IMG/VR virus record: IMGVR_UViG_3300007538_004429
Coordinates: 1-20,036 of that record
Source: a virus
DNA: 20,036 nt
Reading direction: 5' to 3' (one strand)
Shown here one piece after another: positions 1-14,165 of this stretch. The position numbers were made by a program, and so were the translations under genes. The notes under the pieces were generated by a model that saw nothing but the letters and a program-made list of their open reading frames with translations, did not search any database and was not told the origin of the DNA. How positions within the stretch are numbered: the first letter of the stretch is position 1; the number at the start of each line of letters is the position of its first letter.

Positions 1-684
1 CACACAGTATGCCTGTTTAAGATCTGCCTCTAATCCTTCACCGCCTTGTGATCCACCCGATGTTAGGTTATCGCTCAATCTAATATTTTTTCCTTGAATA
101 CCCTGTGCTCCTTTGATTCCGCCATTGAGATTGCGTGGATGTGGCCGTATGATGATTTCTCTATCAGTGTATTTTCTAATCTCATTAACCGTGTGTTGCA
201 TCCATTCAGTAAATGATTTAAAACCTTGATTGTAGATTTCCACAATACTAGAATCACCTTCTTTTTGACCCATCAAGATAATTTTATCTCCAGGGCTGCG
301 CCAATCTTTTATTCGCAAGCCTGTAGTTCGCTCAAACTTTTGCCATCTATCAGGTGGTGAATTCTGGTTACCAAACACACCATCTGTCCATTTGTAACTG
401 TACCAACCTAATCGTTGGTATGTGCCTGCATACTTTCTAAAGTTTGGACTTTCTTGCACCAAAAACGGTTTGCCAGAATTTAAGATATATTCATATGGCC
501 CATTGCGATTTACTGTTGCAAATTTGGGTTTTAATAAATTTGTCTGTAAAAAAGCATCAGCTTCTTGTGCAACAGGATCGTCCACAGAATCTGCCAGTGC
601 ATAATCATCGCCGTGACTGCGAATACCTCTGGTTATGTGTTTTACTGCTTTAACACTTCCACGAATGCCCACCACGTTAATCAT
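1..684 (-). CDS. Capsule-synthesis-like glycosyltransferase, paralogue A (3' end cut by the window edge)
   Basis: The frame is open from the ATG at 684 to base 1, giving 228 residues of a longer protein. It belongs to the same family as four other genes here (1355-2269, 3185-3958, 4661-5593, 6808-7581). Shared landmarks are a DGVF segment (residues 101-104), KDWRSPGDKIIL (126-137), YTDREIIIRPHP (172-183) and DLKQAYCV at the cut, which aligns with the DDLNRAWC stretch of paralogue D just before its TYNS motif. The R-x-HP and later T-x-NS motifs recall capsule polysaccharide biosynthesis (KpsC/KpsS-type) GT-B proteins; that link is by motif only. The likely role is sugar transfer in glycan assembly. 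A ribosome site AAGGA lies 7 nt upstream, and the start forms an ATGA overlap with the stop of the methyltransferase gene before it. Donor and acceptor sugars are unknown. Confidence 0.72.
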   Translation of the reverse strand, partial: MINVVGIRGSVKAVKHITRGIRSHGDDYALADSVDDPVAQEADAFLQTNLLKPKFATVNRNGPYEYILNSGKPFLVQESPNFRKYAGTYQRLGWYSYKWTDGVFGNQNSPPDRWQKFERTTGLRIKDWRSPGDKIILMGQKEGDSSIVEIYNQGFKSFTEWMQHTVNEIRKYTDREIIIRPHPRNLNGGIKGAQGIQGKNIRLSDNLTSGGSQGGEGLEADLKQAYCV

Positions 685-1358
685 TCAACGATCCTTATAC
701 AACATTGATAAGAACCACTGATTGAGACAACTTCAAATGATCTGTCATATTTTTCAATCCATTCACACAGAGCTTTCCATTCACCTTCACGCCAGAGTGG
801 ATAAACTTTGTTTTTATCTGGTTTGTTGAAATAACACATCTCATCAAAAACAATAATAGTATTTTTTACGATATAATCGTTTAATTTGTCTAACACATAT
901 ATGGTAGATGAGTATAAGTCAGCATCTAAATGCAAAAATTTTACTTGCTGCATTGTGTTATTTTGTTCTAACCAAGGTTCCAAACTTTTATCAAAAAATC
1001 CCACAATCAGTTCAACATTAGAGTTAACTTCGGGAAGACTATTTCTAGAAAAATGTCCTTTTTTATGTTTAATATTATCAGGATCTGCTTTTTCTGAATC
1101 GGTCATGATCCAATCTTCGGGTAACCCTTCAAAAAATACATCGAATCCGTATACAGGTTGGTTTGGCATTTGATCTGCAATGAAATTAGTAGTCGATGCA
1201 GTATTAACCCCAAATTCCATAATTTCGCCAGGGATCGAGCATTGGTCTAGCGCATATGTTAGGTGCTGCATTCTTGCAACTCCGCCGCGTTCGCCAGCAC
1301 CAATTAATGTTGCATTTAAAAAATGCGAAATATCTATGTTATTTTTATCTACAATCAT
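681..1358 (-). CDS. TylF/macrocin-type O-methyltransferase
   Basis: This is a 225-residue class I SAM-dependent methyltransferase of the TylF/MycF (macrocin O-methyltransferase) type, a family that methylates sugar hydroxyls. Supporting motifs are PGEIMEFGVNTAS (residues 43-55, SAM-binding motif I), YGFDVFFEGLPEDW (70-83), FLHLDADLYSS (141-151, with the metal- and substrate-binding aspartates of the family) and IIVFDE (168-173). The frame continues upstream to a GTG at 1385. The ATG at 1358 is preferred because it makes an ATGA overlap with the preceding stop, like other junctions in this island. It sits between glycosyltransferase-like paralogues B and A, so O-methylation of a sugar in the same glycan is the likely job. 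The family call is fairly safe; the substrate is inference. Confidence 0.8.
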   Translation of the reverse strand: MIVDKNNIDISHFLNATLIGAGERGGVARMQHLTYALDQCSIPGEIMEFGVNTASTTNFIADQMPNQPVYGFDVFFEGLPEDWIMTDSEKADPDNIKHKKGHFSRNSLPEVNSNVELIVGFFDKSLEPWLEQNNTMQQVKFLHLDADLYSSTIYVLDKLNDYIVKNTIIVFDEMCYFNKPDKNKVYPLWREGEWKALCEWIEKYDRSFEVVSISGSYQCCIRIVE

Positions 1359-2269
1359 GTTATATAGTTTCTCATGTGTGACCACGCACTACCATTACTT
1401 AGCTCTTTAAAATTCCAATGGCTCATACAAATACGCTCAATCCATTGCTGTCTTTCAAAAAATTGGGGTGCTTCTATAGCCTTTATTTTAGTATTTGCAA
1501 CCGGGTGTGCCTGACTACGTTTTCCACCATCAACCGGATCAGTAACAAAAACCGGAATACCTTCAATAGCAGCAGCGACACCTGGGCTAGAATTATATGT
1601 TACCACACACCAGGCACGTTCAAAATCATCTAGTATGCTAGGCTGATTGCTGATTTCCCAGTTGCCCTGATTTTGTTGCAGGTATTCATTAGCACGTTTA
1701 TCACCTGGATGTGCTCTGACTAGAATCGGGCGATCAGTATGTTGCTTGATACTCTGAACTGTGTTGTGTAACCAATCCACGACAGCAAACCCATCCATGC
1801 TCCAGCCACCATTTCTTTGTGTGCATATCAATATATGCTTGCCAGGATGCCTCCAATCCTTTAGACTTATATTGTAATCACGTCTAATCTGCAACCAACG
1901 CTGTGGATCCGGATTATCCCAAAAATATTTTCCTGTGGTAGGAAATATTCCATCCATGCTATATCGATGGTATGCAGGAGTTTTGATACCAGTATAATTA
2001 AACAGGTTGCTATCTATGATAATGGTGTGACGATTATGTGTATTTTGTGAAACCTGTCTACGTAAACCTAGATGTTTTGTATCAGGACTATTTGCATGAA
2101 CCCATCCTTGTATGACACCAACATCTGCCTGTAATAAATCTCTTGAATTGTGTACAACACCGATGTCTCCAGCCGCATTTACACCGTCCGCAAATCTAAT
2201 GAGCATTTCTGCTTTTTCAGGATTCTTACGTGCGTTGGGTATCCCACCCAAATAGCTCACGACTTTCAT
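1355..2269 (-). CDS. Capsule-synthesis-like glycosyltransferase, paralogue B
   Basis: This 304-residue protein is a full-length member of the five-copy family. It shows DGIF (residues 106-109), YNISLKDWRHPG (132-143), HTDRPILVRAHPGD (177-190), ERAWCVVTYNSSPG (217-230) and EGIPVF (236-241). The R-x-HP and TYNSS-plus-small-residue motifs resemble the nucleotide-sugar-binding half of KpsC/KpsS-like GT-B enzymes. The N-terminal half is divergent, as expected if it binds the acceptor. An upstream in-frame ATG exists at 2293, but the start at 2269 gives an ATGA overlap with the pyruvyltransferase-like gene and a natural MKVVSYLGG N-terminus. The ribosome site is poor, so translational coupling is likely. 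There is no signal peptide or membrane segment, which suggests a cytoplasmic enzyme. The specific linkage cannot be predicted. Confidence 0.72.
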   Translation of the reverse strand: MKVVSYLGGIPNARKNPEKAEMLIRFADGVNAAGDIGVVHNSRDLLQADVGVIQGWVHANSPDTKHLGLRRQVSQNTHNRHTIIIDSNLFNYTGIKTPAYHRYSMDGIFPTTGKYFWDNPDPQRWLQIRRDYNISLKDWRHPGKHILICTQRNGGWSMDGFAVVDWLHNTVQSIKQHTDRPILVRAHPGDKRANEYLQQNQGNWEISNQPSILDDFERAWCVVTYNSSPGVAAAIEGIPVFVTDPVDGGKRSQAHPVANTKIKAIEAPQFFERQQWIERICMSHWNFKELSNGSAWSHMRNYIT

Positions 2270-3192
2270 GTTCTTTGTTTGATGATTTCCCAAAATTTTT
2301 CAGTGGCATTACAACACTCATCTAGTGCATTGTCGTATTGTTCAACGTCATCAATTATGTCTTGCCAGTCTGTACTGCTATTAATAAATGTTGGCTTGTG
2401 CTTCATGTAATTAAATTTACTACTCCAGGCATCTACTACAATAACTTTTTTGTTTAAAAGTGTCCCCCAGTATGCTCCGTGATAACTGTTGGTTATGATA
2501 GTGTTCGCACTGCCTAATAATTCAATAGTTTGCTCAATGTTGCTCCCTGAGTTAATAAATCTAGGCACGGATTCTGCACCAAAAGTCTTTATGAGTTGTT
2601 TCTTGTGCTCAAACCAAATCACATCATTACGCACAGTATATGTTTTTCTTAATGCCGGGTGCATGCAACTTGCACATGGTGCCCATTGGTATCCAGTGTT
2701 ATGATCTCTGACTCCCACTAGATCGTAATCAATTAGGTAATCCGGATATTCTAGATTCTGTGGTTTGATTTTTAGCGCCTTAGCATCAGAGTTGTTATGT
2801 CCTGCACCCCAAATAACTTTATATTCAGGTCCGTTGGGTATATTTGAGTAAGTGTCTTTAATTAATCTCTCAAACTCTTTAGTAAATTCTTTATGCATTT
2901 CGTCCAGAGATTGATCTGTCAGTTTCCAGCGCATTCGGAATAAACGTTTAAGTCGTACTCTATCAGGATGATCTGTTAAATCTTCCATGGCTTGGTTAAA
3001 ATTTGGATTGTCAATTAATCCCCCACCGCCAACAATCAGATTTGTATTCACAGGAAATCCTTTTTTGTTTAAATCGTCAATGTCAACTACGTCATATTCG
3101 TCATCATTCAAAAAATACTGTAATGGGTTAGCTGCCCAATCACCCACGTTGTTTTTGTCTGCACGATGTACTACTGTAAATTTTTTAGCCAT
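2266..3192 (-). CDS. Polysaccharide pyruvyltransferase-like protein
   Basis: These 308 residues carry the marks of the polysaccharide pyruvyltransferase family (CsaB/WcaK type): NNVGDWAANP (residues 14-23), LIVGGGGLID (52-61), VIWGAGHN (126-133), DLVGVRD (157-163) and ITNSYHGAYWGTLLNKKVI (233-251), the last being the donor-site S-x-HG signature. Known members add a pyruvate ketal from phosphoenolpyruvate to sugars of surface polymers, giving a negative charge. Some relatives in glycan clusters have not been tested, so the donor is inferred. The ATG at 3192 overlaps the stop of paralogue C by 8 nt. The gene lies between paralogues C and B, which fits a tailoring step on the glycan they build. 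Confidence 0.82.
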   Translation of the reverse strand: MAKKFTVVHRADKNNVGDWAANPLQYFLNDDEYDVVDIDDLNKKGFPVNTNLIVGGGGLIDNPNFNQAMEDLTDHPDRVRLKRLFRMRWKLTDQSLDEMHKEFTKEFERLIKDTYSNIPNGPEYKVIWGAGHNNSDAKALKIKPQNLEYPDYLIDYDLVGVRDHNTGYQWAPCASCMHPALRKTYTVRNDVIWFEHKKQLIKTFGAESVPRFINSGSNIEQTIELLGSANTIITNSYHGAYWGTLLNKKVIVVDAWSSKFNYMKHKPTFINSSTDWQDIIDDVEQYDNALDECCNATEKFWEIIKQRT

Positions 3193-3958
3193 ACCATTCT
3201 TCTAGTTTTTGTTTAGCACTACCATCAGTTAATTCATTGATATGAAATTGTCCATATGCTAAATGGCATGCCCATGCATACCGTTTATCGTTTGATGGAT
3301 AGTAAGGGTCTTCAATTTTACTCAGATCCTGTAGCCCGACGGGCTGAGCTGCATTAGGTGCTAATGTAAACACAGGAACACCAAAAAACACACTTTCTGT
3401 TGCTGCTACGCTATTAAATGTAACTAGCGCATGTACGTCATTACTTAGCGATTGTTCAAGCGTGTCTGTTAATCTTGCTATTCGTTGTTTGGCACGCTCT
3501 CTAACAACAACGGGCCTATCAGTGTATTTTTTAATTGTGTTGACTGTTTGATCAATCCACTGCTGCTGATTTACACCATAAAACTTGCAAGGTTTTTCAT
3601 CTGGTGCTGCAACAATTATTTTACTTCCGGTTTTCCAGGGATGTATTGCTTTATTAAACTTTTGAAACCTGTCTCCAGGTCGCTCAATGATATCTGTATG
3701 TTGTAGATTATTTTTAACAATTCTGTGCCAGTACTTCCAGGTACCTTCATTACCAAAGTATCCAGTATCCATATAATAAAACGTGCGGTTATCTTGCCAA
3801 CATCGTTTTATTATTTTGTGCTTTAGTATCCCACGTAGTACAATGGCATCGTTACTCTGGGCGTAATCAAACGTTTCGGTATCGGTTGGTACTGACTTGC
3901 AACCGCGTGCAAAATCATTAATGTATCTGTCTTGGCCATTTTTACTTAAAAATATCAT
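3185..3958 (-). CDS. Glycosyltransferase-like protein, paralogue C (HP-less subfamily)
   Basis: This is a 257-residue member of the five-copy family and the closest relative of paralogue E, which has the same length. Shared with E are the N-terminal Y-x-D-x-GYF-x-N block (residues 62-70 here), IIVAAPDE (114-121), YTDRPVVVRER (145-155), ALVTFNSVAATESVFFGVPVF (177-197), the LAP..(A)LQDLSKIEDPYYP block (199-221) and a C-terminal YGQF-x-(V/I)NE. The HP pair found in A, B and D is replaced by ER, so the catalytic or nucleotide contacts may differ. The ATG at 3958 overlaps the GT8 gene stop by 17 nt; no better internal start is seen. Function as a glycosyltransferase is inferred from family resemblance and neighbours. 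It could instead be a degenerate, non-catalytic partner. Confidence 0.65.
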   Translation of the reverse strand: MIFLSKNGQDRYINDFARGCKSVPTDTETFDYAQSNDAIVLRGILKHKIIKRCWQDNRTFYYMDTGYFGNEGTWKYWHRIVKNNLQHTDIIERPGDRFQKFNKAIHPWKTGSKIIVAAPDEKPCKFYGVNQQQWIDQTVNTIKKYTDRPVVVRERAKQRIARLTDTLEQSLSNDVHALVTFNSVAATESVFFGVPVFTLAPNAAQPVGLQDLSKIEDPYYPSNDKRYAWACHLAYGQFHINELTDGSAKQKLEEWYG

Positions 3959-4631
3959 GTTGCTCGCAGTATTCAGTTAAAATACGTTCGCGGTGCCATT
4001 CGCTACCCATAGGGGTATTAGCAAATTCGTGAAAACTTGGCGTACCTAATGTATAATGTAACAATTTAGCATCAGGGTTCACACCATACTCATCCGGTAA
4101 CCAGTTCCACTCTGCAGGTAGTTCGCCAATACGTTCATCTTTAATCCAGCTAAAGCGATGCAAGTGTGCGCCAGTTGCCTTTTGAATGTAATCTGGCTTT
4201 AACACTCTGTTAGGATGACTGTTACAATTCCAAAGTATAACGCTTGACCAGTTCTTGCGTGGATAATTTTCGTTTTTACTGCCAAGATACTTTGTGGTCA
4301 TCTTGGTTTCATAATCATGTTTGACTACCATCACGTCTTTATCCATCTCACGCAGCTCCCACAGTTTAACAATATCATCGCGCACAATCATATCGCCATC
4401 CATAAAAATAGCCCATCCAAGATAATCCATTAAGTGTGGGACAAGAAATCTACTGTAGATAAAATGGTTACTTCCATCTGTGTGCGTTTCCTTATAATCA
4501 TCAAACAAGTTCAATGCTAATGGAATAATCGATACTGGTTTGCTTGCATGTCTGATAATCGAATTAGCACACGTGTGATATGCTATAGCTTCTCTTGGAT
4601 CATATCCTATAAAAATTGGAATTGGTTTCAT
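3942..4631 (-). CDS. GT8-type (GT-A fold) glycosyltransferase
   Basis: A 229-residue protein of the GT8-like group, retaining glycosyltransferases that use UDP-sugars with a divalent metal. The N-terminus IFIGYDPREAIAYHTCANSI (residues 6-25) is the usual opening of phage and bacterial members. AIFMDGDMIV (74-83) holds the D-x-D metal site (DGD, 78-80). LLHYTLG (190-196) provides the late histidine that commonly completes the metal site. There is no membrane anchor. The start has a good ribosome site (AAAAGGA, about 6 nt upstream). The 29-nt gap to paralogue D is one of the few non-overlapping junctions in the island. Together with paralogues C and D it probably adds a sugar to a glycan or lipid-linked intermediate; which sugar is unknown. 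Confidence 0.82.
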   Translation of the reverse strand: MKPIPIFIGYDPREAIAYHTCANSIIRHASKPVSIIPLALNLFDDYKETHTDGSNHFIYSRFLVPHLMDYLGWAIFMDGDMIVRDDIVKLWELREMDKDVMVVKHDYETKMTTKYLGSKNENYPRKNWSSVILWNCNSHPNRVLKPDYIQKATGAHLHRFSWIKDERIGELPAEWNWLPDEYGVNPDAKLLHYTLGTPSFHEFANTPMGSEWHRERILTEYCEQHDIFK

Positions 4632-4660
4632 TTATATCCTTTTAGAGTCAATGTAATTAA

Positions 4661-5593
4661 TTATCTTGGCATACATTCTTTGAGCAAATTCCAAACATAT
4701 CCGCTGGAAAACTCATCTCCCTTCCATTGCTGAAATGCAATACGGTTACACCATTCTGATCGATCAAATTCCAAACTATCTTCAATCTGCAATATTGAAT
4801 CACCGCTAACTGGAGCAGCAACCGCACTTGAATCCAATGTTATGGTTGGAGTACCATATAACACACTTTCAACTGAACTGGTACTGTTGTACGTAATCAT
4901 ACACCAGGCACGATTTAAGTCGTCATATAAATCAGGCATTGTGGAAAACTCAATGTCTGAATGTTCTCGTTGTATGAAACGTTCACTTCTATGATCCAGT
5001 GGATGCGACCTAACAATAATTGGCCGATCTGTGTGCTGTTTGATATTGTCAATTACGCCTGACATATATTCTTTGTAATCGATATCATTATACGTCAGTC
5101 TGTTTAATGCTGAATCTGCTGCTACCTGAAGATTAATTAAAATAGCGTCGCCTCTGCGTTTCCAGTCGTGCAATCTTATGTTATATTTGCTCGATAATTG
5201 ATCCCATCTTCTATAACTAGAATCGTATGGAAATACGCCATCATCCATAAAAAAACTATTCCATGATAGTTTAATCCACATATCTTCAAACGGGACGCTA
5301 CCTCCAAAACCGCCATGCCTATTAGAATTAGATAATAACTGTCGTATAACAGGTGCCTCTCGTATTAATATAGGTTTGTTTAAACGCTGGCTTATTTCTT
5401 CAACGGCTTCGTAGATATAATTTGTTGGGCGTACCTTCTTTTTAATTCCGTTCTGTACAAAAAAGTCAAATTCTGATTTCTCAACATTTTCAAAATCGAT
5501 TGATTCAATACGATCATCTGTAGTGGTAGATATAATATTGTTAAACTGTTTAAGTTTTTTCCATTTTGGTTGTTTAACTATTATACCAATCAT
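4661..5593 (-). CDS. Capsule-synthesis-like glycosyltransferase, paralogue D
   Basis: This 310-residue protein groups with paralogues A and B: DDGVFPY (residues 117-123), YNIRLHDWKRRGDAILI (137-153), HTDRPIIVRSHPLD (187-200), DDLNRAWCMITYNSTSSVESVLYGTPT (224-250). An N-terminal stretch of about 100 residues is specific to this copy. A start four codons upstream (5605) is possible. The ATG at 5593 is chosen because it forms an ATGA overlap with the methyltransferase stop and has GGA about 7 nt upstream. The R-x-HP and TYNS motifs support a GT-B-like nucleotide-sugar-binding domain akin to capsule synthesis enzymes. Substrate is unknown. Confidence 0.72.
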   Translation of the reverse strand: MIGIIVKQPKWKKLKQFNNIISTTTDDRIESIDFENVEKSEFDFFVQNGIKKKVRPTNYIYEAVEEISQRLNKPILIREAPVIRQLLSNSNRHGGFGGSVPFEDMWIKLSWNSFFMDDGVFPYDSSYRRWDQLSSKYNIRLHDWKRRGDAILINLQVAADSALNRLTYNDIDYKEYMSGVIDNIKQHTDRPIIVRSHPLDHRSERFIQREHSDIEFSTMPDLYDDLNRAWCMITYNSTSSVESVLYGTPTITLDSSAVAAPVSGDSILQIEDSLEFDRSEWCNRIAFQQWKGDEFSSGYVWNLLKECMPR

Positions 5594-6195
5594 TCCCAGT
5601 TCCATTCAGTAATTTGTCCATCGAATGGCTCTGTTACAAATTCTGGTAGCCAAGGCTTCAAACGTTTTATATCACCTGAATCATATTTTAGCTTAGGTAA
5701 ATCAAAATCGTCAGCCTGCGCTATAACTGTGATGTTATAATTATACGTCTTAATATGTGCATTCTTACAGTTAAATCCTGCTAATACTAAGTTATATAAT
5801 AAAATACCTGCATTCCAAAGAGTTACATGACCGCCGACAATATTATGTTTCAATGGCGGAACAGTAATACACGTATATCCACCTATACGAGTTTCAGATC
5901 TGACTTTTTTAAGAAACTGGTTTACATTTAACTGATGTTCAAGCACGTGACTAGCCCAGGTTAAATCTTGTGGCACAAACGTTAGATCATTATAAAATCC
6001 TTTGGCGTCCATCGGATAGAATTCATCATTGATATCTGTTGACGTTACAATCTTGCCTGCTTCCAAGAATTGTTTTGAGTGAAAACCGTCGCCAGCCCCA
6101 ATATCTAATACAGTATGAAAATCTAAATTGTTAATACAAAATTCAAGACCGTCTTGTGCCCGTGATTTCTTTCCTTTTGATTTCTTAGTTTTCAT
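5590..6195 (-). CDS. SAM-dependent methyltransferase (class I)
   Basis: A 201-residue class I methyltransferase. Motif I is TVLDIGAGDGFHS (residues 28-40), the acidic end of strand 2 is TSTDIND (51-57), and SHVLEH (82-87) is the post-motif seen in many Methyltransf_11-type proteins acting on small molecules or sugars. IGGYTCITVPP (104-114) is the usual strand after the SAM domain. The first 14 residues are lysine-rich. The start makes an ATGA overlap with the stop of the sulfotransferase gene. Its place between the sulfotransferase and paralogue D suggests it modifies the same glycan; the methyl acceptor cannot be told. Confidence 0.75.
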   Translation of the reverse strand: MKTKKSKGKKSRAQDGLEFCINNLDFHTVLDIGAGDGFHSKQFLEAGKIVTSTDINDEFYPMDAKGFYNDLTFVPQDLTWASHVLEHQLNVNQFLKKVRSETRIGGYTCITVPPLKHNIVGGHVTLWNAGILLYNLVLAGFNCKNAHIKTYNYNITVIAQADDFDLPKLKYDSGDIKRLKPWLPEFVTEPFDGQITEWNWE

Positions 6196-6818
6196 CTTTT
6201 ACTGTTTTCCCATAAATCAAAATCAGTGGCATAATACTGTTCAATCTTAGATATTGTTTGTTGGTTAATCGCTGGCGTCGTGATATTGTCAGTAGTATTA
6301 AATCTATACAATTGAAGAGTCAAATTTAATGTTTGGTTTACTTTATTTAATCCTTGTTCAAAATTCTCAGTTGTAAATAATATACAGTTTTTAAAATCAT
6401 CGATGTGCTTAACAAACCAACTCTGTGAGCGTAAATGAACATTTCGATCTTCTTCTGACATATCGTTGATCAAATCAACAAAATAATCTAGATTTTTAAT
6501 GCCATTGCTAGCAATGCCATTGACCACAATGTTTTGTTTCTTACCTTGTGTGATATCTTTGAATGTTGATATCAATCGTTTAACTGGATCTCTAAAATGT
6601 ATCACTGTAGGTAACTTGTTTTGTGCTGGAGAAATATATGTTAAATATTTTTTATATTTTTTATACCAATCAATGTCCCAATTGATGTCTGATTCACTAA
6701 TGATTTTTTGTTCCAGCCAGACGCTAGTTTTGAAACTACTTGAACCATTTTTTGGAATGCCAATATAATCAAAATTCAAATCTGTGTATCTTATAATACA
6801 GTGTTCTTTAGTTTTCAT
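6192..6818 (-). CDS. Sulfotransferase-family protein
   Basis: A 208-residue protein with both PAPS-binding elements of carbohydrate sulfotransferases (Sulfotransfer_2-like): the 5'-phosphosulfate loop YIGIPKNGSSSFK (residues 18-30) and the 3'-phosphate motif FRDPVKRLISTF (75-86). The C-terminal IEQYYATDFDLW (about residues 192-203) matches the family's usual ending. The protein is shorter than most eukaryotic members but within the range of phage and bacterial ones. The start has a strong ribosome site (AAAGGAG) and overlaps paralogue E by 11 nt. The likely reaction is transfer of sulfate from PAPS to a sugar hydroxyl, adding negative charge to the glycan made by the neighbouring enzymes. PAPS would have to come from the host; no PAPS synthesis gene is visible here. 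Confidence 0.83.
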   Translation of the reverse strand: MKTKEHCIIRYTDLNFDYIGIPKNGSSSFKTSVWLEQKIISESDINWDIDWYKKYKKYLTYISPAQNKLPTVIHFRDPVKRLISTFKDITQGKKQNIVVNGIASNGIKNLDYFVDLINDMSEEDRNVHLRSQSWFVKHIDDFKNCILFTTENFEQGLNKVNQTLNLTLQLYRFNTTDNITTPAINQQTISKIEQYYATDFDLWENSKR

Positions 6819-7581
6819 AACGCTCCTTTAAGATATCGCGCATGAATCCGTTTTCAATTTCGTTTACAGTAAATTGTCCGTAACTTAGACTTTTGATCCA
6901 TTCCCAACGATTATCTGGATAGTATGGCTCTTCAATCTGGCTAATGTCTTGAAGTGCCATTAAATCGCAACAACTTGGTGCCAAGTTAAACACCGGAACG
7001 CCTTCGCATATGCTTTCGATACAGGCTAAACTCTGATGTGTAATTATGGCCCAGGCATCATGTAAGTAAGGTGTTAACGGATCGTCGCCGCGGTCTTTGC
7101 GTGTTTCTTTGAAACGATAAAATATTTTTCTGTCTGTATATTTGCGCAACTCGTGCTTTAGCCAAAATACCCATTCATATTCATTTTTAAATTCGGTGTA
7201 ATACTGAACTGGAAATTCATCTGGGGCGACTATAAGAATATAATCACCAGTCTTGCGCCAATCTTTGAGTTCTACATGATATGACCGTATGCGTTTGTCG
7301 TCGCAATCAAATATTTGTGACTCTTGGAGATTGTTTAAACTGAATCTGAATGTACTGGCTGCTTTAGTATTAAAGAAATACCCTTTATCGTAATGTAAAT
7401 ATTGTCCATGTTCGAATACCTGATGTTGATATTCATTGTATTTCCACGGACCAACGGTGAGATATGTTGATTTTAAATCAACTGTTGCAGTTTCTTCAAC
7501 AGGAATACTCTTGCTTATATGCGGGATCAGTTTGGCAAGAACATTATGCGGACGTTCAAAATATTTTAATTTCTCAAACAT
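6808..7581 (-). CDS. Glycosyltransferase-like protein, paralogue E (HP-less subfamily)
   Basis: This 257-residue protein has the same length as paralogue C and is its closest relative. Landmarks are YDKGYFFN (residues 64-71), VELKDWRKTGDYILIVAPDE (103-122), YTDRKIFYRFKE (148-159), AWAIITHQSLACIESICEGVPVF (176-198), LAPSCCDLMALQD (200-212), ISQIEEPYYPDN (213-224) and a late YGQFTVNE. As in C, the R-x-HP motif is lost. The asparagine of TYNS is also changed (THQS), so catalysis is uncertain. The frame could begin one codon earlier with TTG, but the ATG at 7581 is the better start. It is the first glycosyltransferase-like paralogue in the transcript, 18 nt after a methyltransferase gene. Confidence 0.62.
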   Translation of the reverse strand: MFEKLKYFERPHNVLAKLIPHISKSIPVEETATVDLKSTYLTVGPWKYNEYQHQVFEHGQYLHYDKGYFFNTKAASTFRFSLNNLQESQIFDCDDKRIRSYHVELKDWRKTGDYILIVAPDEFPVQYYTEFKNEYEWVFWLKHELRKYTDRKIFYRFKETRKDRGDDPLTPYLHDAWAIITHQSLACIESICEGVPVFNLAPSCCDLMALQDISQIEEPYYPDNRWEWIKSLSYGQFTVNEIENGFMRDILKERYEN

Positions 7582-7599
7582 CAATAAAACAATGTCTTT

Positions 7600-8355
7600 T
7601 TAGTCTTCGCCGAGCCAGCGAAGACTACGATCTAACCATTCGAGTACAAGGTCTTGCTGTCTAAGATACCCATATGAATTAATACTGTTAACAGCACTTT
7701 CCGGAAGTAGACCAGTCTCGGCCAAATCGTACCAGCGTGTAGTTTTTGGATCCATTGGATTAATATCTGATTTATATACAATAGCGCGAACCCATGGATC
7801 GCCTATATCTTTTTTCATAAACGCACAATCAAATCCAGATACTGATAGCATATGCATCAAGCTAACTGGAGTATAATGAAAGTATTCATAATCATATTGC
7901 CTAGCTGTAAACCTATTGAACACTAATTCAGTAGTTGATGGCACAGTCAAACAGAGCATTGCACCATCTGTCATTATATCATACCATGTTCTAAGTGTTT
8001 CTAATGGATTGACCGAATACTGAAACGCATTATTGCACCAAATAACATCAAAACCTTTCTGTTCTTTGTTAAGAGAATATGTTTCAAAATCTCTGCGTTC
8101 ATATACAATATTCTTGTATTGTTTTGCTATTGGCAAATTGGATTTTAAATCAACGCCAGTGCATTTAATATTTAATGGAATTTTGTTATCATCGTCATCT
8201 AAAATGTAAGCGTTTGCCCACCATTCTAAATCAAGACCACTGCCGCACCCCATATCAACAAGGGTATCGATACTCTCCATAAAACTGCTGTACTGCCACA
8301 GCAAATCTAATGTTTCAAGTGCATGTTCGTGAGCTTCTTGATCGTTTTTAAACAC
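7600..8355 (-). CDS. SAM-dependent methyltransferase (class I), GTG start
   Basis: A 251-residue class I methyltransferase: motif I TLVDMGCGSGLDLEWW (residues 31-46), strand-2 acidic residue in CTGVDLKSN (65-73), and the motif FDVIWCNNAFQYSVNP followed by an LRTWYDIMTDGAMLCLTVPS block typical of Methyltransf_11/23-like enzymes. The start is GTG at 8355, fixed by a strong ribosome site GGAGGA 5 nt upstream and an 8-nt overlap with uvsY. It is the first gene of the glycan island and directly follows the recombination genes, so its substrate could be part of the glycan pathway or something else. I cannot assign the acceptor. Confidence 0.77.
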   Translation of the reverse strand: MFKNDQEAHEHALETLDLLWQYSSFMESIDTLVDMGCGSGLDLEWWANAYILDDDDNKIPLNIKCTGVDLKSNLPIAKQYKNIVYERRDFETYSLNKEQKGFDVIWCNNAFQYSVNPLETLRTWYDIMTDGAMLCLTVPSTTELVFNRFTARQYDYEYFHYTPVSLMHMLSVSGFDCAFMKKDIGDPWVRAIVYKSDINPMDPKTTRWYDLAETGLLPESAVNSINSYGYLRQQDLVLEWLDRSLRWLGED

Positions 8356-10244: not shown

Positions 10245-11095
10245 TATTTCTGGTAATCCCAGAAACCGTTTTTATAGTTAGGATAACATGTTTTGTTTTC
10301 ATTCCAGAATACTTTAATCATTGCATTTGCATTTTTGATATAAAGACGAGGCGGCTCTGGCCAATCATACAAAGCACTTACAGATGGACATGGAATACCA
10401 TTAAAATATATGTCATTATCAAATACTATTGTTGCTTGATTAACATTTCTCAAATCAACCATGAATTCCACTGGTTCTGAAGAATTATCAATTGTGACTG
10501 AGAATATTCTGTTATGAATACCATATGGTTTTATGAAATCAAATTTGTTTAACTGTTCTATTAAACCAGCCGATAGATCGTTTCTGTTATCATTGATTAT
10601 TTTACTCGGATTATAATCATAAAACACACTATCGTGTATTCCTTCATAAATGTATGCAGATACTGACCAAGAATCTGGGATTGACTTAACAGAATTACCA
10701 AATAATGTTTTTGAATGTGTCAAAAACTGCCTCATCTTTAAATTATTTTGAAATTCATCGCCAATTCGCTCACATAATAAGATGTCAACGTCTCTTGGAA
10801 CATCATTCTCAGATAAACTTAAAAAATCAGTAGTCCATACTTGAAATTTGTTCTCAAAACCTAGATTTTTTAAAATTTCCTGGGTCATTTTAACTCTGGA
10901 TGATCGAATATCAATACCATAGTAATATGCGGCGCCAGCTTCTAGTGCCAATGATGCAAGAATACCGATTCCGCAACCAATTTCAAAAACCACTTTGTCT
11001 TTGACTGTTTTTAAAAAAATCTCTTTATACCAATTGTTTCGTGGTATATCATTGAGAAATGTTAATGCCGTTTTGATTTCTGGGTGTCTAAACAT
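10241..11095 (-). CDS. PRMT-like SAM-dependent methyltransferase
   Basis: A 284-residue methyltransferase with the order and spacing of protein arginine methyltransferases. Motif I is VVFEIGCGIGILASLALEAGA (residues 35-55), with YGIDIRSS after it (59-66). VDILLCERIGDEF (103-115) sits where PRMTs carry the first glutamate of their double-E loop. A beta-rich C-terminal half follows (after about 135), as in the PRMT barrel. The second loop glutamate is not at the usual +9 position, where there is asparagine; an acidic DE lies at +4/+5. So arginine methylation is uncertain and another acceptor is possible. The ATG at 11095 shares its A with the TAA of the preceding gene. It lies between gp32 and uvsX but ahead of the uvsX promoter, so it belongs with the cargo genes after the gp32 terminator. 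Confidence 0.72.
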   Translation of the reverse strand: MFRHPEIKTALTFLNDIPRNNWYKEIFLKTVKDKVVFEIGCGIGILASLALEAGAAYYYGIDIRSSRVKMTQEILKNLGFENKFQVWTTDFLSLSENDVPRDVDILLCERIGDEFQNNLKMRQFLTHSKTLFGNSVKSIPDSWSVSAYIYEGIHDSVFYDYNPSKIINDNRNDLSAGLIEQLNKFDFIKPYGIHNRIFSVTIDNSSEPVEFMVDLRNVNQATIVFDNDIYFNGIPCPSVSALYDWPEPPRLYIKNANAMIKVFWNENKTCYPNYKNGFWDYQKY

Positions 11096-12015
11096 TATAT
11101 TAGGTTCTCAAGGTAATCACCACTAAAGTATCGATCGTAATTATATTCAATAGTCTCTTGTTCTACCAAATATAAGTCTGTCCAATCATGGACCGACAAA
11201 TTAGAAAATTTTAAGATCATTTCAATCAATCGTATTAAACGGTGTATCGGATTAGTTATTTCATCAAATGAATAGTCAAATATTTTATCATATTTCTTAA
11301 ATCCATAAAATGTTTCCAGATTTTTGTGCCAGGTTGGCTGTGCATAGAACACAAAAAGTCCTCTGGTAACGATGCTTAACAAAAACTTTTCTGAATAAAA
11401 TGGATAATAACTTACCGGAATTGTCTCTGATGAGACATTTACAAATGATCTAGTTACAATGTTTTCCAATACCTGTAGATTATTTGTATGACTGAACTGT
11501 TGATAATTTAAACTAATAATTTTATTGTTAAAATCACTGGCTGAATCCACAAAAAATTTATCGTAGACAGAATTTCCGGCCAGTAGTTCAACATCACCAA
11601 TAATCTGGTCCCACGAAAATTGAAAATTTTTAGTACAGGTATTTTTGTTAAACAGTCCTGTTTTGTTTAAAATTGACAGTAGAAGACGGCGCCCAACATT
11701 GTGTGCGCCATTAAAACTACACAAAAAATTATCAAATTTAATTTCAGGATGAATATGGTAATTTCGATAAAATTCCATGCCACTCCAGAATGAATATTTA
11801 AACTCTAAATTTTTGTAATTCTGTCTTAATACCGTATCAATGGGAAAATCAAGATACACTAATCCTGTTACGTCATGTGCCCTTGCATATTCGTCAACAC
11901 GATCTAAAATTTTATTTTTGCCATATGCATAAAATCCACCAATGTGGTCCTCTAATCGCAGAGGAAAAACATATTCACGTGCAGTCAAATATTGTTCAAC
12001 TAATTGATCGTTCAC
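11095..12015 (-). CDS. Fucosyltransferase-like/glycosyltransferase-like protein, GTG start
   Basis: A 306-residue protein without a firm family. Two blocks recall a glycosyltransferase-like group in phages and surface-glycan clusters: FLCSFNGAHNVGRRLLLSIL (residues 97-116), and ETIPVSYYPFYSEKFLLSIV (197-216) followed by GFKKYDKIFDYSFDEITNPIHRLIRLIEMI (238-267). The second block has the 'SEK-K-x-G...F-D-SFD' layout seen in FUT-like enzymes. The frame runs upstream to a TTG at 12030 and beyond, without ATG. The GTG at 12015 is chosen because it forms a GTGA overlap with the stop of a 23-codon gene that has a strong ribosome site. Function in sugar transfer is a modest-confidence inference, supported by other glycan genes nearby. 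Confidence 0.6.
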   Translation of the reverse strand: MNDQLVEQYLTAREYVFPLRLEDHIGGFYAYGKNKILDRVDEYARAHDVTGLVYLDFPIDTVLRQNYKNLEFKYSFWSGMEFYRNYHIHPEIKFDNFLCSFNGAHNVGRRLLLSILNKTGLFNKNTCTKNFQFSWDQIIGDVELLAGNSVYDKFFVDSASDFNNKIISLNYQQFSHTNNLQVLENIVTRSFVNVSSETIPVSYYPFYSEKFLLSIVTRGLFVFYAQPTWHKNLETFYGFKKYDKIFDYSFDEITNPIHRLIRLIEMILKFSNLSVHDWTDLYLVEQETIEYNYDRYFSGDYLENLI

Positions 12016-12083
12016 TGTTTCTTTAAACAATAAAGCAAGTTGCCAATAGCAATAAATTCTAAAATAATTAACAATTCTATCAT
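12012..12083 (-). CDS. 23-residue hydrophobic peptide with strong ribosome site
   Basis: A short frame starts with ATG at 12083, 6 nt after GGAG (12090-12093). It encodes 23 residues: MIELLIILEFIAIGNLLYC followed by LKKQ. Residues 3-19 are almost all hydrophobic and a basic tail follows, so it could be a single membrane-spanning micropeptide. Its TGA overlaps a GTG start of the next gene (GTGA), so it may instead be a leader peptide that couples translation. It lies just after the U-tract of the gp32 terminator. No homologue is known to me. The strong ribosome site and the stop/start overlap are the evidence; expression is unproven. Confidence 0.5.
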   Translation of the reverse strand: MIELLIILEFIAIGNLLYCLKKQ

Positions 12084-12095
12084 AACAATCTCCAA

Positions 12096-12131
12096 ATTTA
12101 AAAACTCACACCCGGCTTTCGGGTGTGAGTT
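12096..12131 (-). terminator. Rho-independent terminator after gp32
   Basis: A perfect 12-bp stem (AACTCACACCCG, 12103-12114 on the plus strand, with CGGGTGTGAGTT, 12120-12131) closes a 5-nt loop. On the minus strand it is followed by TTTTTAAATTT. It starts 12 nt after the gp32 stop codon, so it ends the gp32 transcript; genes to its left need read-through or an unseen promoter. Confidence 0.9.
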
Positions 12132-12143
12132 AGTTACCTTAAC

Positions 12144-13121
12144 TTAGGATGATTGTCGTGCTCGGATCATAGCCAAAATATCTTTTGACTTGTCTGCACT
12201 TGCACCTGCTGGTGCTTGTTCTACTTTAGGTTCTACACTTGGTGCAACTTCAAACGGCGGTGCCGTCTCTGCTACCGGTGCTGCTGGTGCAGTTGGTGTT
12301 GCTGATGTCGTTGATTGTGATGCTTCTGAATTACCAAAATTCATACCTGCTGGCTTAAAGTAAGATCCCCATTTATCAGGATCATATGCCTTGCCATCAA
12401 CTGATGCTTCGAACATTTCAGTCATAACCTTTAGTTCAATATCATTTGGTTTATTTGGCAAGAACGATTTCAGATCATACAATCCATATTGCTCAATTGC
12501 TGCCAGTTCATCAGCGTTTAGTGCTGTTTCTTTACGAGCCCAAGTGCTAGTACTGTAATCTGCATATCCGCCCTTGGTAGTTTTGGTAATACGGAAATCA
12601 AGTCCGTTGTTGTAATCAGTTGGCAGATCATCAAAATCTGATGACAGCAGTGATGCTTTAACTGTGCCAAAAATCTGTGGTGAAATAATGAACCGACGGA
12701 TTGGATTTTCTGGTGTGTTATCATCTTCAAGAGGATTGTTATGTACAAAACCCTGGAACAAATAACTACGCTTCTTCCAATAACGACCAGCCATTTCTTT
12801 AAGACTTGGATCTTTATACCAAGGACGTACTTCTGCTAAAATCGGACACGATTCATTCCACATTTCTACGCAGGGTACTGTCACAACAACCTGCTTACTG
12901 TCTCCGCCTACAACGCCGTTAAATGGTAGACGAATAGTTTGACGTTCAATCCAAAAGAATGGGTTTGAAGTGTCACCATCAGGAAGGAAGCGAACAGTTG
13001 CGGTTTCGCCTTCGCCGATGTTCCAGTGTGGGTAAATAGCGTTATCGCCTTGGAATGTAGAGCCAGTGCTCTTGTTTTCTTGTGCTGCTAGACGAGCACG
13101 AATATCTGCTAAAGATGCCAT
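12144..13121 (-). CDS. 32: gp32-like single-stranded DNA-binding protein
   Basis: A 325-residue gp32-type SSB (T4: 301). The N-terminus ADIRARLAAQENKSTGS (residues 5-21) is the basic self-association arm. The core shows IYPHWNIGEGETATVRFLPDGD (29-50), NPFFWIERQTIRLPF (53-67), CPILAEVRPWYKD (92-104), GRYWKKRSYLFQGFV (112-126), PIRRFIISPQIFGTV and DFRITKTTKGGYADYSTSTW, all typical OB-fold and aromatic DNA-binding segments. Only two cysteines remain (84 and 92); the C-x2-C of the T4 zinc site is absent. A proline/alanine linker leads to a C-terminus DKSKDILAMIRARQSS, which is not the acidic tail of T4. It coats ssDNA in replication and recombination with UvsX and UvsY. The gene stands alone, with its own promoter, long leader (ribosome site AAGGAG) and terminator. 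Confidence 0.93.
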   Translation of the reverse strand: MASLADIRARLAAQENKSTGSTFQGDNAIYPHWNIGEGETATVRFLPDGDTSNPFFWIERQTIRLPFNGVVGGDSKQVVVTVPCVEMWNESCPILAEVRPWYKDPSLKEMAGRYWKKRSYLFQGFVHNNPLEDDNTPENPIRRFIISPQIFGTVKASLLSSDFDDLPTDYNNGLDFRITKTTKGGYADYSTSTWARKETALNADELAAIEQYGLYDLKSFLPNKPNDIELKVMTEMFEASVDGKAYDPDKWGSYFKPAGMNFGNSEASQSTTSATPTAPAAPVAETAPPFEVAPSVEPKVEQAPAGASADKSKDILAMIRARQSS

Positions 13122-13224
13122 AGTATATTTCTCCTTATGCCTTATGCCTATGTTTTTTTACCTTATGCCTAAGTGTATGCCTAGAATGTTTTTTCTAAAA
13201 CAAACAAAACTATTGCTACACTTA
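13122..13224 (-). promoter_or_regulatory. gp32 mRNA leader, candidate autoregulatory operator
   Basis: The predicted leader is about 100 nt. Its 5' end can form an outer 8-bp stem (TAAGTGTA, 13217-13224, with TACACTTA, 13170-13177) enclosing an inner 5-bp hairpin (TAGAA 13193-13197, TTCTA 13182-13186). The U-rich loop sequence TGTTTT (13197-13202) could pair with AAAACA (13151-13156) beyond the stem, giving an H-type pseudoknot. After it come repeated AGGCATA heptamers running into the ribosome site. In T4, gp32 represses its own translation by nucleating at a leader pseudoknot and spreading over unstructured RNA to the ribosome site; the layout here matches, by inference. Confidence 0.55.
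13136..13182 (-). repeat. Four AGGCATA heptamers in the gp32 leader
   Basis: TATGCCT on the plus strand (AGGCATA in the mRNA sense) occurs at 13136-13142, 13143-13149, 13164-13170 and 13176-13182. The first three starts are separated by 7 and 21 nt, multiples of the unit length; the fourth is 12 nt further. The repeats generate several AAGG sequences, of which only the last (AAGGAG, 13131-13136) is correctly placed before the gp32 ATG. Confidence 0.85.
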
Positions 13225-13231
13225 CCATGTA

Positions 13232-13261
13232 AGTATAACACAAAAGTATTTAGTACGTCAA
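13232..13261 (-). promoter_or_regulatory. Sigma-70-type promoter of gp32
   Basis: On the minus strand: TTGACG (13256-13261), an 18-bp spacer, and TATACT (13232-13237) preceded by TG in the extended -10 position (TGTTATACT). The predicted start is near 13225, exactly where the outer leader stem begins. It lies between the glycosyltransferase stop (13286) and gp32. Confidence 0.75.
13247..13254 (-). promoter_or_regulatory. Late-promoter-like box of gp32
   Basis: The minus strand reads ACTAAATA followed by CTTTT, close to the T4 late box TATAAATA. It sits inside the spacer of the sigma-70 promoter, so gp32 may be read both early and late. A start about 6 nt downstream (near 13241) would lengthen the leader by about 16 nt. 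Confidence 0.45.
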
Positions 13262-13285: not shown

Positions 13286-14140
13286 TTATTTTTTATTTGG
13301 CAATTTATCCCAGATAAATTCAATATCAATATTGCGAGACATCCACCACTCTTTTGTCATTTGCTTATCAGATAAGAAACACGTTGTGAAAATACCTTTA
13401 TTTGAACCGCTGGGTTGCGGAGGACAATAAAAAGATATTGGAGTTTGATTTAATATTTTTTCTTTGAACTGTTCAATGAGTTCCCATTCACTAACACTAA
13501 AGCGTGTGTCAAATTGAATATTCTTATGAATTTCTAAAAAATCATTACAGTGCAATTTACTAACATAACTCCTCAATTCATTAAGAGTCCATTTATCAAT
13601 GTCTCTAAACGGAACACCACTAGTAGCAACACATAATTCAGATGTCATCCTTATTGGCATCTCAACGTTTAGTGGTTGATAAGGGATCTTTAATATATAT
13701 TCCAGGTATTTGGCTTGTTGACTACTAACATCACCCGGACCAGGTTCTTGAACTGTTAAAGGTTCTCCAATCCATTTTGTAACATAACATGGGGTAAATT
13801 TATTATCAGGCAACTGTTCAAGAAACTCCACATCACCGTCAGTAATAAAGAACTCATCAAAATCTACAACTGTGTCAATATATAATTTGATCATTTGTTG
13901 TCGTAACCATCCGTCACCTTTAAACATTGTTAATAAATTTAATGTTTGGTTAGTTGGAATTACTTCTACACCGTAAAAAACTTTACAATCGTCAATATAT
14001 CCATTCCATGTAAGATTGCTGATATTATCTGCTATAACAGTTATGTTAGACTGTGGTGAGATCTTTTTTATTGATTCAATTGCAAGTTTAGACAATAAAA
14101 AATGACCAGGGTATGTAAGTAGTACTATGTTATTTCTCAT
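13286..14140 (-). CDS. GT-A-like glycosyltransferase (DUF6492-like)
   Basis: A 284-residue protein that looks like the DUF6492 group of putative GT-A glycosyltransferases. The N-terminus NIVLLTYPGHFLLSKLAIES (residues 4-23) is the Rossmann-like opening. WLRQQMIKLYIDT (78-90) precedes FDEFFITDGDVEFLE (94-108), with a D-x-D metal site (DGD, 101-103). Later come TSELCVATSGVPF and FSVSEWELIEQF. An in-frame TTG lies three codons upstream of the chosen ATG (14140); neither has a good ribosome site. It sits alone between the terminator of the 1172-aa gene and the gp32 promoter, with no promoter of its own visible. It probably acts in the cytoplasm on a surface or virion glycan; donor and acceptor unknown. 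Confidence 0.7.
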   Translation of the reverse strand: MRNNIVLLTYPGHFLLSKLAIESIKKISPQSNITVIADNISNLTWNGYIDDCKVFYGVEVIPTNQTLNLLTMFKGDGWLRQQMIKLYIDTVVDFDEFFITDGDVEFLEQLPDNKFTPCYVTKWIGEPLTVQEPGPGDVSSQQAKYLEYILKIPYQPLNVEMPIRMTSELCVATSGVPFRDIDKWTLNELRSYVSKLHCNDFLEIHKNIQFDTRFSVSEWELIEQFKEKILNQTPISFYCPPQPSGSNKGIFTTCFLSDKQMTKEWWMSRNIDIEFIWDKLPNKK

Positions 14141-14165
14141 GTTAGACAATTTGGTAAATCAGGAA

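Follow-up and report, generated by a model that had tools for sequence, protein, structure and literature searches.

How a phage single-stranded-DNA-binding protein might control translation of its own mRNA is the question raised by the leader of the gp32 gene analysed here. The window, meaning the whole 20,036-nt stretch of DNA examined, is a virus record whose terminase, uvsX, uvsY and gp32 genes are of the RaK2/PA5oct kind. The features on which the argument depends, all on the minus strand, are the following.

12144..13121, minus strand: gp32, single-stranded-DNA-binding protein of 325 aa (PHROG 1192, E 3.7e-62)
12103..12131, minus strand: intrinsic terminator directly 3' of gp32, with a 12-pair stem, 7 G-C pairs and a T tail
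13232..13261, minus strand: sigma70-like promoter TTGACG-18-TATACT, with the -35 element at 13261 and the -10 box at 13237-13232
13224-13217, minus strand: 5' arm UAAGUGUA of the outer stem, fully complementary to 13177-13170
13177-13170, minus strand: 3' arm UACACUUA of the outer stem, which continues into AGGCATA copy 2
13182-13176, minus strand: AGGCATA copy 1, invariant in the clade
13170-13164, minus strand: AGGCATA copy 2, invariant in the clade
13149-13143, minus strand: AGGCATA copy 3, invariant in the clade
13142-13136, minus strand: AGGCATA copy 4, touching the Shine-Dalgarno and invariant in the clade
13136-13131, minus strand: Shine-Dalgarno AAGGAG, invariant in the clade, with the gp32 ATG at 13121

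The gp32 gene and its conserved leader

By sequence, the gene at 12144-13121 is a distant homologue of T4 gp32. A family profile matches the solved T4 and RB69 gp32 structures at E values of 7e-6 to 2e-5; the protein of the record alone scores 18.7 bits, under the Pfam gp32 cut-off of 26.8. Because the terminator at 12131-12103 follows immediately, gp32 is taken to be a one-gene unit. The genes on either side (11095-12030 and 13286-14149) have no PHROG match, and a gene block unlike phage core genes occupies 681-8355, between uvsX/uvsY and the left end of the stretch. In relatives of the record the C-terminus of gp32 (DILAMIRAR) resembles the protein's own N-terminus (SLADIRARLAA), a likeness that might reflect competition between both protein ends. 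The gp32 genes of this phage family were also seen on contigs (L462-L465) binned to metagenome genomes of Pacearchaeota, Pelagibacter, Rickettsiales and another bacterium, a placement that is probably binning contamination.

Transcription from the sigma70-like promoter is predicted to start near 13225, giving a gp32 leader of about 104 nt. Promoter scan scores of at least 9 were obtained for 227 of 256 gp32 upstream regions, compared with 69 of 256 shuffled ones. When viral contigs were searched for exact matches to AGGCATAAGGCATAAGG, 17 stretches were returned, all but three of which precede a gp32 start. Across 11 aligned close relatives, the record included, the four AGGCATA copies, the 3' arm of the outer stem and the Shine-Dalgarno are invariant. 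Measured against the record, and with the near-identical leader L267 excluded, identity is 91-97% in the leader, 77-86% in gp32 nucleotides and 63-87% in the upstream DNA. The greater conservation of the leader relative to both the gp32 gene and the upstream DNA implies strong selection, and marks it as a real regulatory leader.

The 8-bp outer stem proposed in the preliminary description is present, its arms being complementary over their full length. So are the AGGCATA repeats leading into AAGGAG, whose four copies go beyond chance, as they are invariant in the clade and their AGGCA core is enriched across the family.

A sense-strand repeat word at gp32

Five protein-guided scans of viral contigs, an exact search and the named phages together gave 414 leaders, of which 257 are unique. 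The AGGCA counts come from a non-redundant set compiled earlier, which comprises 144 gp32 leaders of RaK2/PA5oct-type jumbo phages. There the word was counted 183 times in sense orientation and once as its reverse complement. Its density is 14.1/kb in these leaders and 1.1/kb in 250 other leaders from the same loci; at least two copies are found in 47 of the 144 gp32 leaders, against 1 of the 250 others. Among 5-letter words, AGGCA is one of the two most enriched in gp32 leaders. Where non-coding triple clusters were placed, on 24 long contigs, they lie at gp32, and the other checked clusters fall within reading frames, a few further matches not having been traced individually. More specifically for the clade of the record, AGGCATA pairs on five contigs (one of 213 kb) are found at gp32 only. 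The AGGC copies are modestly more open than expected (0.53 versus 0.47).

The word is not universal, since AGGC is missing from 51 of 186 non-redundant leaders. The preliminary description had looked to related phages for the stem and the repeats: the plan that combines them is indeed widespread, but some clades keep the promoter and hairpins without AGGC. Many related giant phages retain the plan with the letters changed. Other words occupy the same place in other clades, namely AGGTATAA (L063), TTAGCACAA (Atu_ph07), AACAAAGAAAC (Munch) and a TTAAGGATAA-like word (PA5oct), in leaders L063, L083, L253 and L254. In the leaders lacking AGGC, a word-free repeat test showed no distinct excess of repeats, with about 10% of leaders at p<=0.05, and because of this the RaK2-, PA5oct- and Atu_ph07-type repeat words are treated as single sightings, with no proven rule. 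A tiny hairpin, AAGA-CCA-UCUU, stands before the ribosome site in several clades (L007, L045, L047, L306, L323 and many more), with the compensatory versions GAGA-CCA-UCUC and GACA-CCA-UGUC.

It had been suggested that the leader combines a pseudoknot with a landing array phased at 7 nt, the spacing being set by the gp32 site size. In the record, three of the four copies do share one 7-nt register, with start-to-start spacings of 12, 21 and 7. An arithmetic estimate gives about a 7% chance that at least three of four randomly placed copies would do so. The spacings are 12, 20 and 7 in every close relative except L267. The run between copies 2 and 3 has seven A in the record and L267 only and six elsewhere, so that the spacing becomes 20 and the register is gone. 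Of the 116 distances between copies measured in relatives, 18% are divisible by 7 (14% expected); they concentrate at 10-14 and 24-29 nt and show no 7-nt periodicity. The 7-base spacing is an accident of one sequence. The proposed loop pairing to 13151-13156 consists of complementarity between a U run and an A run, in a clade that offers no informative variation there, and AAAAAACAU occurs twice in the leader, at 13194-13186 and 13158-13150. With a register confined to the record and its near-identical relative and a pseudoknot that lacks comparative support, the phased array is very improbable.

Two further proposals concern what might read the word. Decoy Shine-Dalgarno sites were considered and judged unlikely, since AGGC, the core common to the copies, has poor complementarity to 16S rRNA. 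The AGGC words could also be bound by a different RNA-binding protein, encoded by the phage or its host, which would act as a repressor or activator of gp32 translation. A short, fixed, strand-specific word is unlike what a non-specific single-stranded-DNA-binding protein needs. General repressors such as T4 RegA, however, act on many genes (PMC3014915), whereas this word clusters at gp32 and not in other leaders. Its restriction to one gene favours the leader's own gene product over a general repressor, and a separate binding protein is considered unlikely.

Two mutually exclusive pairings of the 5' arm

An outer stem with an inner hairpin nested in it had been described for this leader. Both are predicted by folding, but the whole-leader fold barely beats its shuffles (z -1.5; 16 of 200 shuffles as good). 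Within the record's own clade the outer stem shows no informative variation and no covariation, and in L255 and L259 the AG that forms the UAG/CUA pairs of the inner hairpin is lost. In L002 and L269 a change from UUAC/GUAA to UUG/CAA keeps a second, upstream hairpin paired and costs the outer stem just its outermost pair. That hairpin and a neighbouring promoter-like element are placed as follows.

13214..13240, minus strand: upstream hairpin UGUUAUACUUAC-AUG-GUAAGUGUAGCA, overlapping the -10 box and offering the 5' arm an alternative partner
13247..13253, minus strand: CTAAATA, late-promoter-like, within the promoter spacer and counted across the family as NTAAATA

Consensus folding of 33 clade A leaders with RNAalifold did not succeed, probably from MAFFT gaps misplacing the arms, and a partner-swap test was used instead. 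In this test the first ~14 nt of each leader, from its predicted start, are paired with the leader's own partner segment and with the segments of other leaders. Relatedness should make the comparison conservative, because arms exchanged between relatives may still be complementary. For the 5' arm and the segment immediately preceding the first AGGC, the pairing energy is -5.25 kcal/mol, compared with -4.11 for swapped segments (z -7.2, 129 leaders; z -6.1 once leaders more than 75% alike are removed). With the segment overlapping the -10 box the values are -7.14 and -5.14 kcal/mol (z -12.8, 184 leaders; z -10.6 after the same removal). For three control segments, z lay between -1.0 and 0.2. 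Distinct arm pairs reaching -6 kcal/mol number 42.

A sister clade (GUUAGUC...GGCGAA) shows covariation. Its 5' hairpin is paired in 100% of cells, with both partners changed in 4 of its 8 pairs. Taken together, the clade's two helices have 98.7% of their cells paired and 25 cells with both partners changed. None of 500 shuffles reaches the observed score, and sliding the partner cuts pairing to 33-59%. The T4-like folded 5' element of the preliminary description is thus supported as a stem beside the first repeat; a second, exclusive pairing of the 5' arm had been missed.

Two other loop contacts were tried and set aside. One would join the clade A loop UCUCC to the Shine-Dalgarno: GGAG is present in 22 of 22 non-redundant leaders that carry UCUCC, against 83 of 176 without the loop motif. 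It is not claimed because most of these leaders share one origin and the loop often has only three bases. Kissing of hairpin loops (AUGGU/ACCAU) fits well in two leaders only, L306 and L311.

These pairings also bear on whether the repeats might function at the DNA level, serving as direct repeats that a transcription factor or a replication or recombination protein would recognise. The repeats lie just downstream of the promoter, and the upstream palindrome straddles the -10 box, as such a role might predict. A single orientation (183:1), copies that run into the ribosome site and a 5' arm that pairs with the pre-AGGC segment in stems of variable sequence suit RNA instead, and a function in DNA is quite improbable.

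The outer stem and the upstream hairpin exclude each other, because both use the same 5' arm. Folded from the sigma70-like start, RNA of the window's clade forms the outer stem with a pairing probability of 0.88-1.0; begun 15 nt earlier, at about the start expected for a putative CTAAATA late promoter, it forms the upstream hairpin (1.0) and no outer stem. Of 184 gp32 leaders, 148 have NTAAATA in their promoter region, inside or just before the sigma70-like promoter and at two preferred distances from the -10 box, about -32 or -14. In 538 other leaders TAAATA has a strand bias of 92:18. The occurrence and the bias fit a T4-type late promoter.

These observations may be combined into a switch set by promoter choice. 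RNA from the sigma70-like promoter would form the AGGC-side stem and be open to autorepression by gp32; late-type (NTAAATA) or read-through RNA would form the upstream hairpin, with altered repression; and lineages would differ in their sequences and repeat words. The proposal is tentative and rather doubtful; if true, nature would have supplied a set of protein/RNA codes, co-evolved in different lineages, for a binding protein that otherwise lacks specificity.

The upstream hairpin may have a simpler role, since it could be a weak terminator overlapping the promoter. As such it would merely insulate gp32 from upstream read-through and take no part in fold switching. The hairpin at 13214-13240 scans as terminator-like, and clade B hairpins precede T runs. 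In clade A, by contrast, no T run follows the palindrome, and still the pairing persists throughout the family. This reading is quite possible, at somewhat less than even odds, and is compatible with an operator at the leader because it concerns the second pairing only.

A probable autogenous operator compared with known gene 32 leaders

The best explanation, held with a probability of roughly 0.6, is that the leader is an autogenous translational operator of the T4-gp32 homologue, for which we infer binding, nucleation and spreading, and repression. RNA from the sigma70-like promoter would form a stem at its 5' end, with an AGGC word adjoining the 3' arm, and further copies would sit in fairly open RNA as far as the ribosome site. 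When in excess of available single-stranded DNA, gp32 would nucleate at the folded 5' element, contact the AGGC words, spread across the ribosome site and block its own translation. The position of the leader, its folded 5' element, the fairly open repeats and their restriction to one gene fit such an operator. Against it stand an outer stem that does not covary in its own clade and loses its outermost pair in L002 and L269, the 51 of 186 leaders in which AGGC is missing, and a T4 model that has no need of a fixed word, because T4 gp32 has no strict preference for sequence. The preliminary description had proposed T4-like autocontrol built from a different sequence, and this remains the best-supported reading by virtue of homology, selection, gp32- and sense-specific repeats and the 5' stem; the phasing attached to it fails, and the pseudoknot lacks comparative support.

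The features, their conservation, the restriction to gp32, the sense-strand bias and the family support for the 5' stem were computed here, and a search of open-licence papers gave no report of the repeat word, of its sense-strand and one-gene restriction or of the two alternative stems. Control of the gp32 type at the leader probably extends to RaK2/PA5oct jumbo phages. How gp32, with little sequence preference for single strands, picks its own mRNA has been called unclear for T4/RB69 (PMC535899). A family with a constant plan and a changing word and hairpins would make this choice testable by pairing protein and leader across clades.

The leader of T4 gene e (lysozyme) resembles the present one in that the transcript start decides the possible leader structure (PMC3014915), through predicted folds here. 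In gene e a structure that covers the ribosome site blocks the longer RNA, whereas here two alternative predicted 5' stems share one arm. The RB49 gene 32 leader is likewise reported to retain repeat words with no recognisable pseudoknot (PMC535899); its words are UUAA/UUAAA, and binding by gp32 is putative in both.

The closest comparison is with the T4/RB69 gene 32 operator. T4-type gene 32 mRNA undergoes RNase E processing near -71. Both systems share the gene family, the position, a 5' folded element and short repeats that extend through open RNA as far as the ribosome site. In contrast, the word is AGGC here and UUAAA/UAAA there, a simple or nested stem is predicted here where a pseudoknot is proven there, and the 5' arm here has a second partner upstream, with word and hairpins varying by clade. 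UUAAA is absent from 13122-13224 and UAAA occurs once, so that the T4-type repeat pattern is not seen, and Rfam 15 gave no match at curated score for the leader in the record or 16 relatives. On present evidence the leader would work like the T4 operator, yet it is not a member by sequence, having no UUAAA words and a pseudoknot that is only proposed. T4 gp32 represses itself by way of two essential elements, a pseudoknot at the 5' end and UUAAA/UAAA repeats downstream of it (PMC535899; PMC3014915). Because the T4 operator itself needs these repeats after its pseudoknot (PMC535899), the repeats described here are less new in kind than was first thought. What appears to be new is a different repeat word, confined to the sense strand, set on the already known logic of T4.
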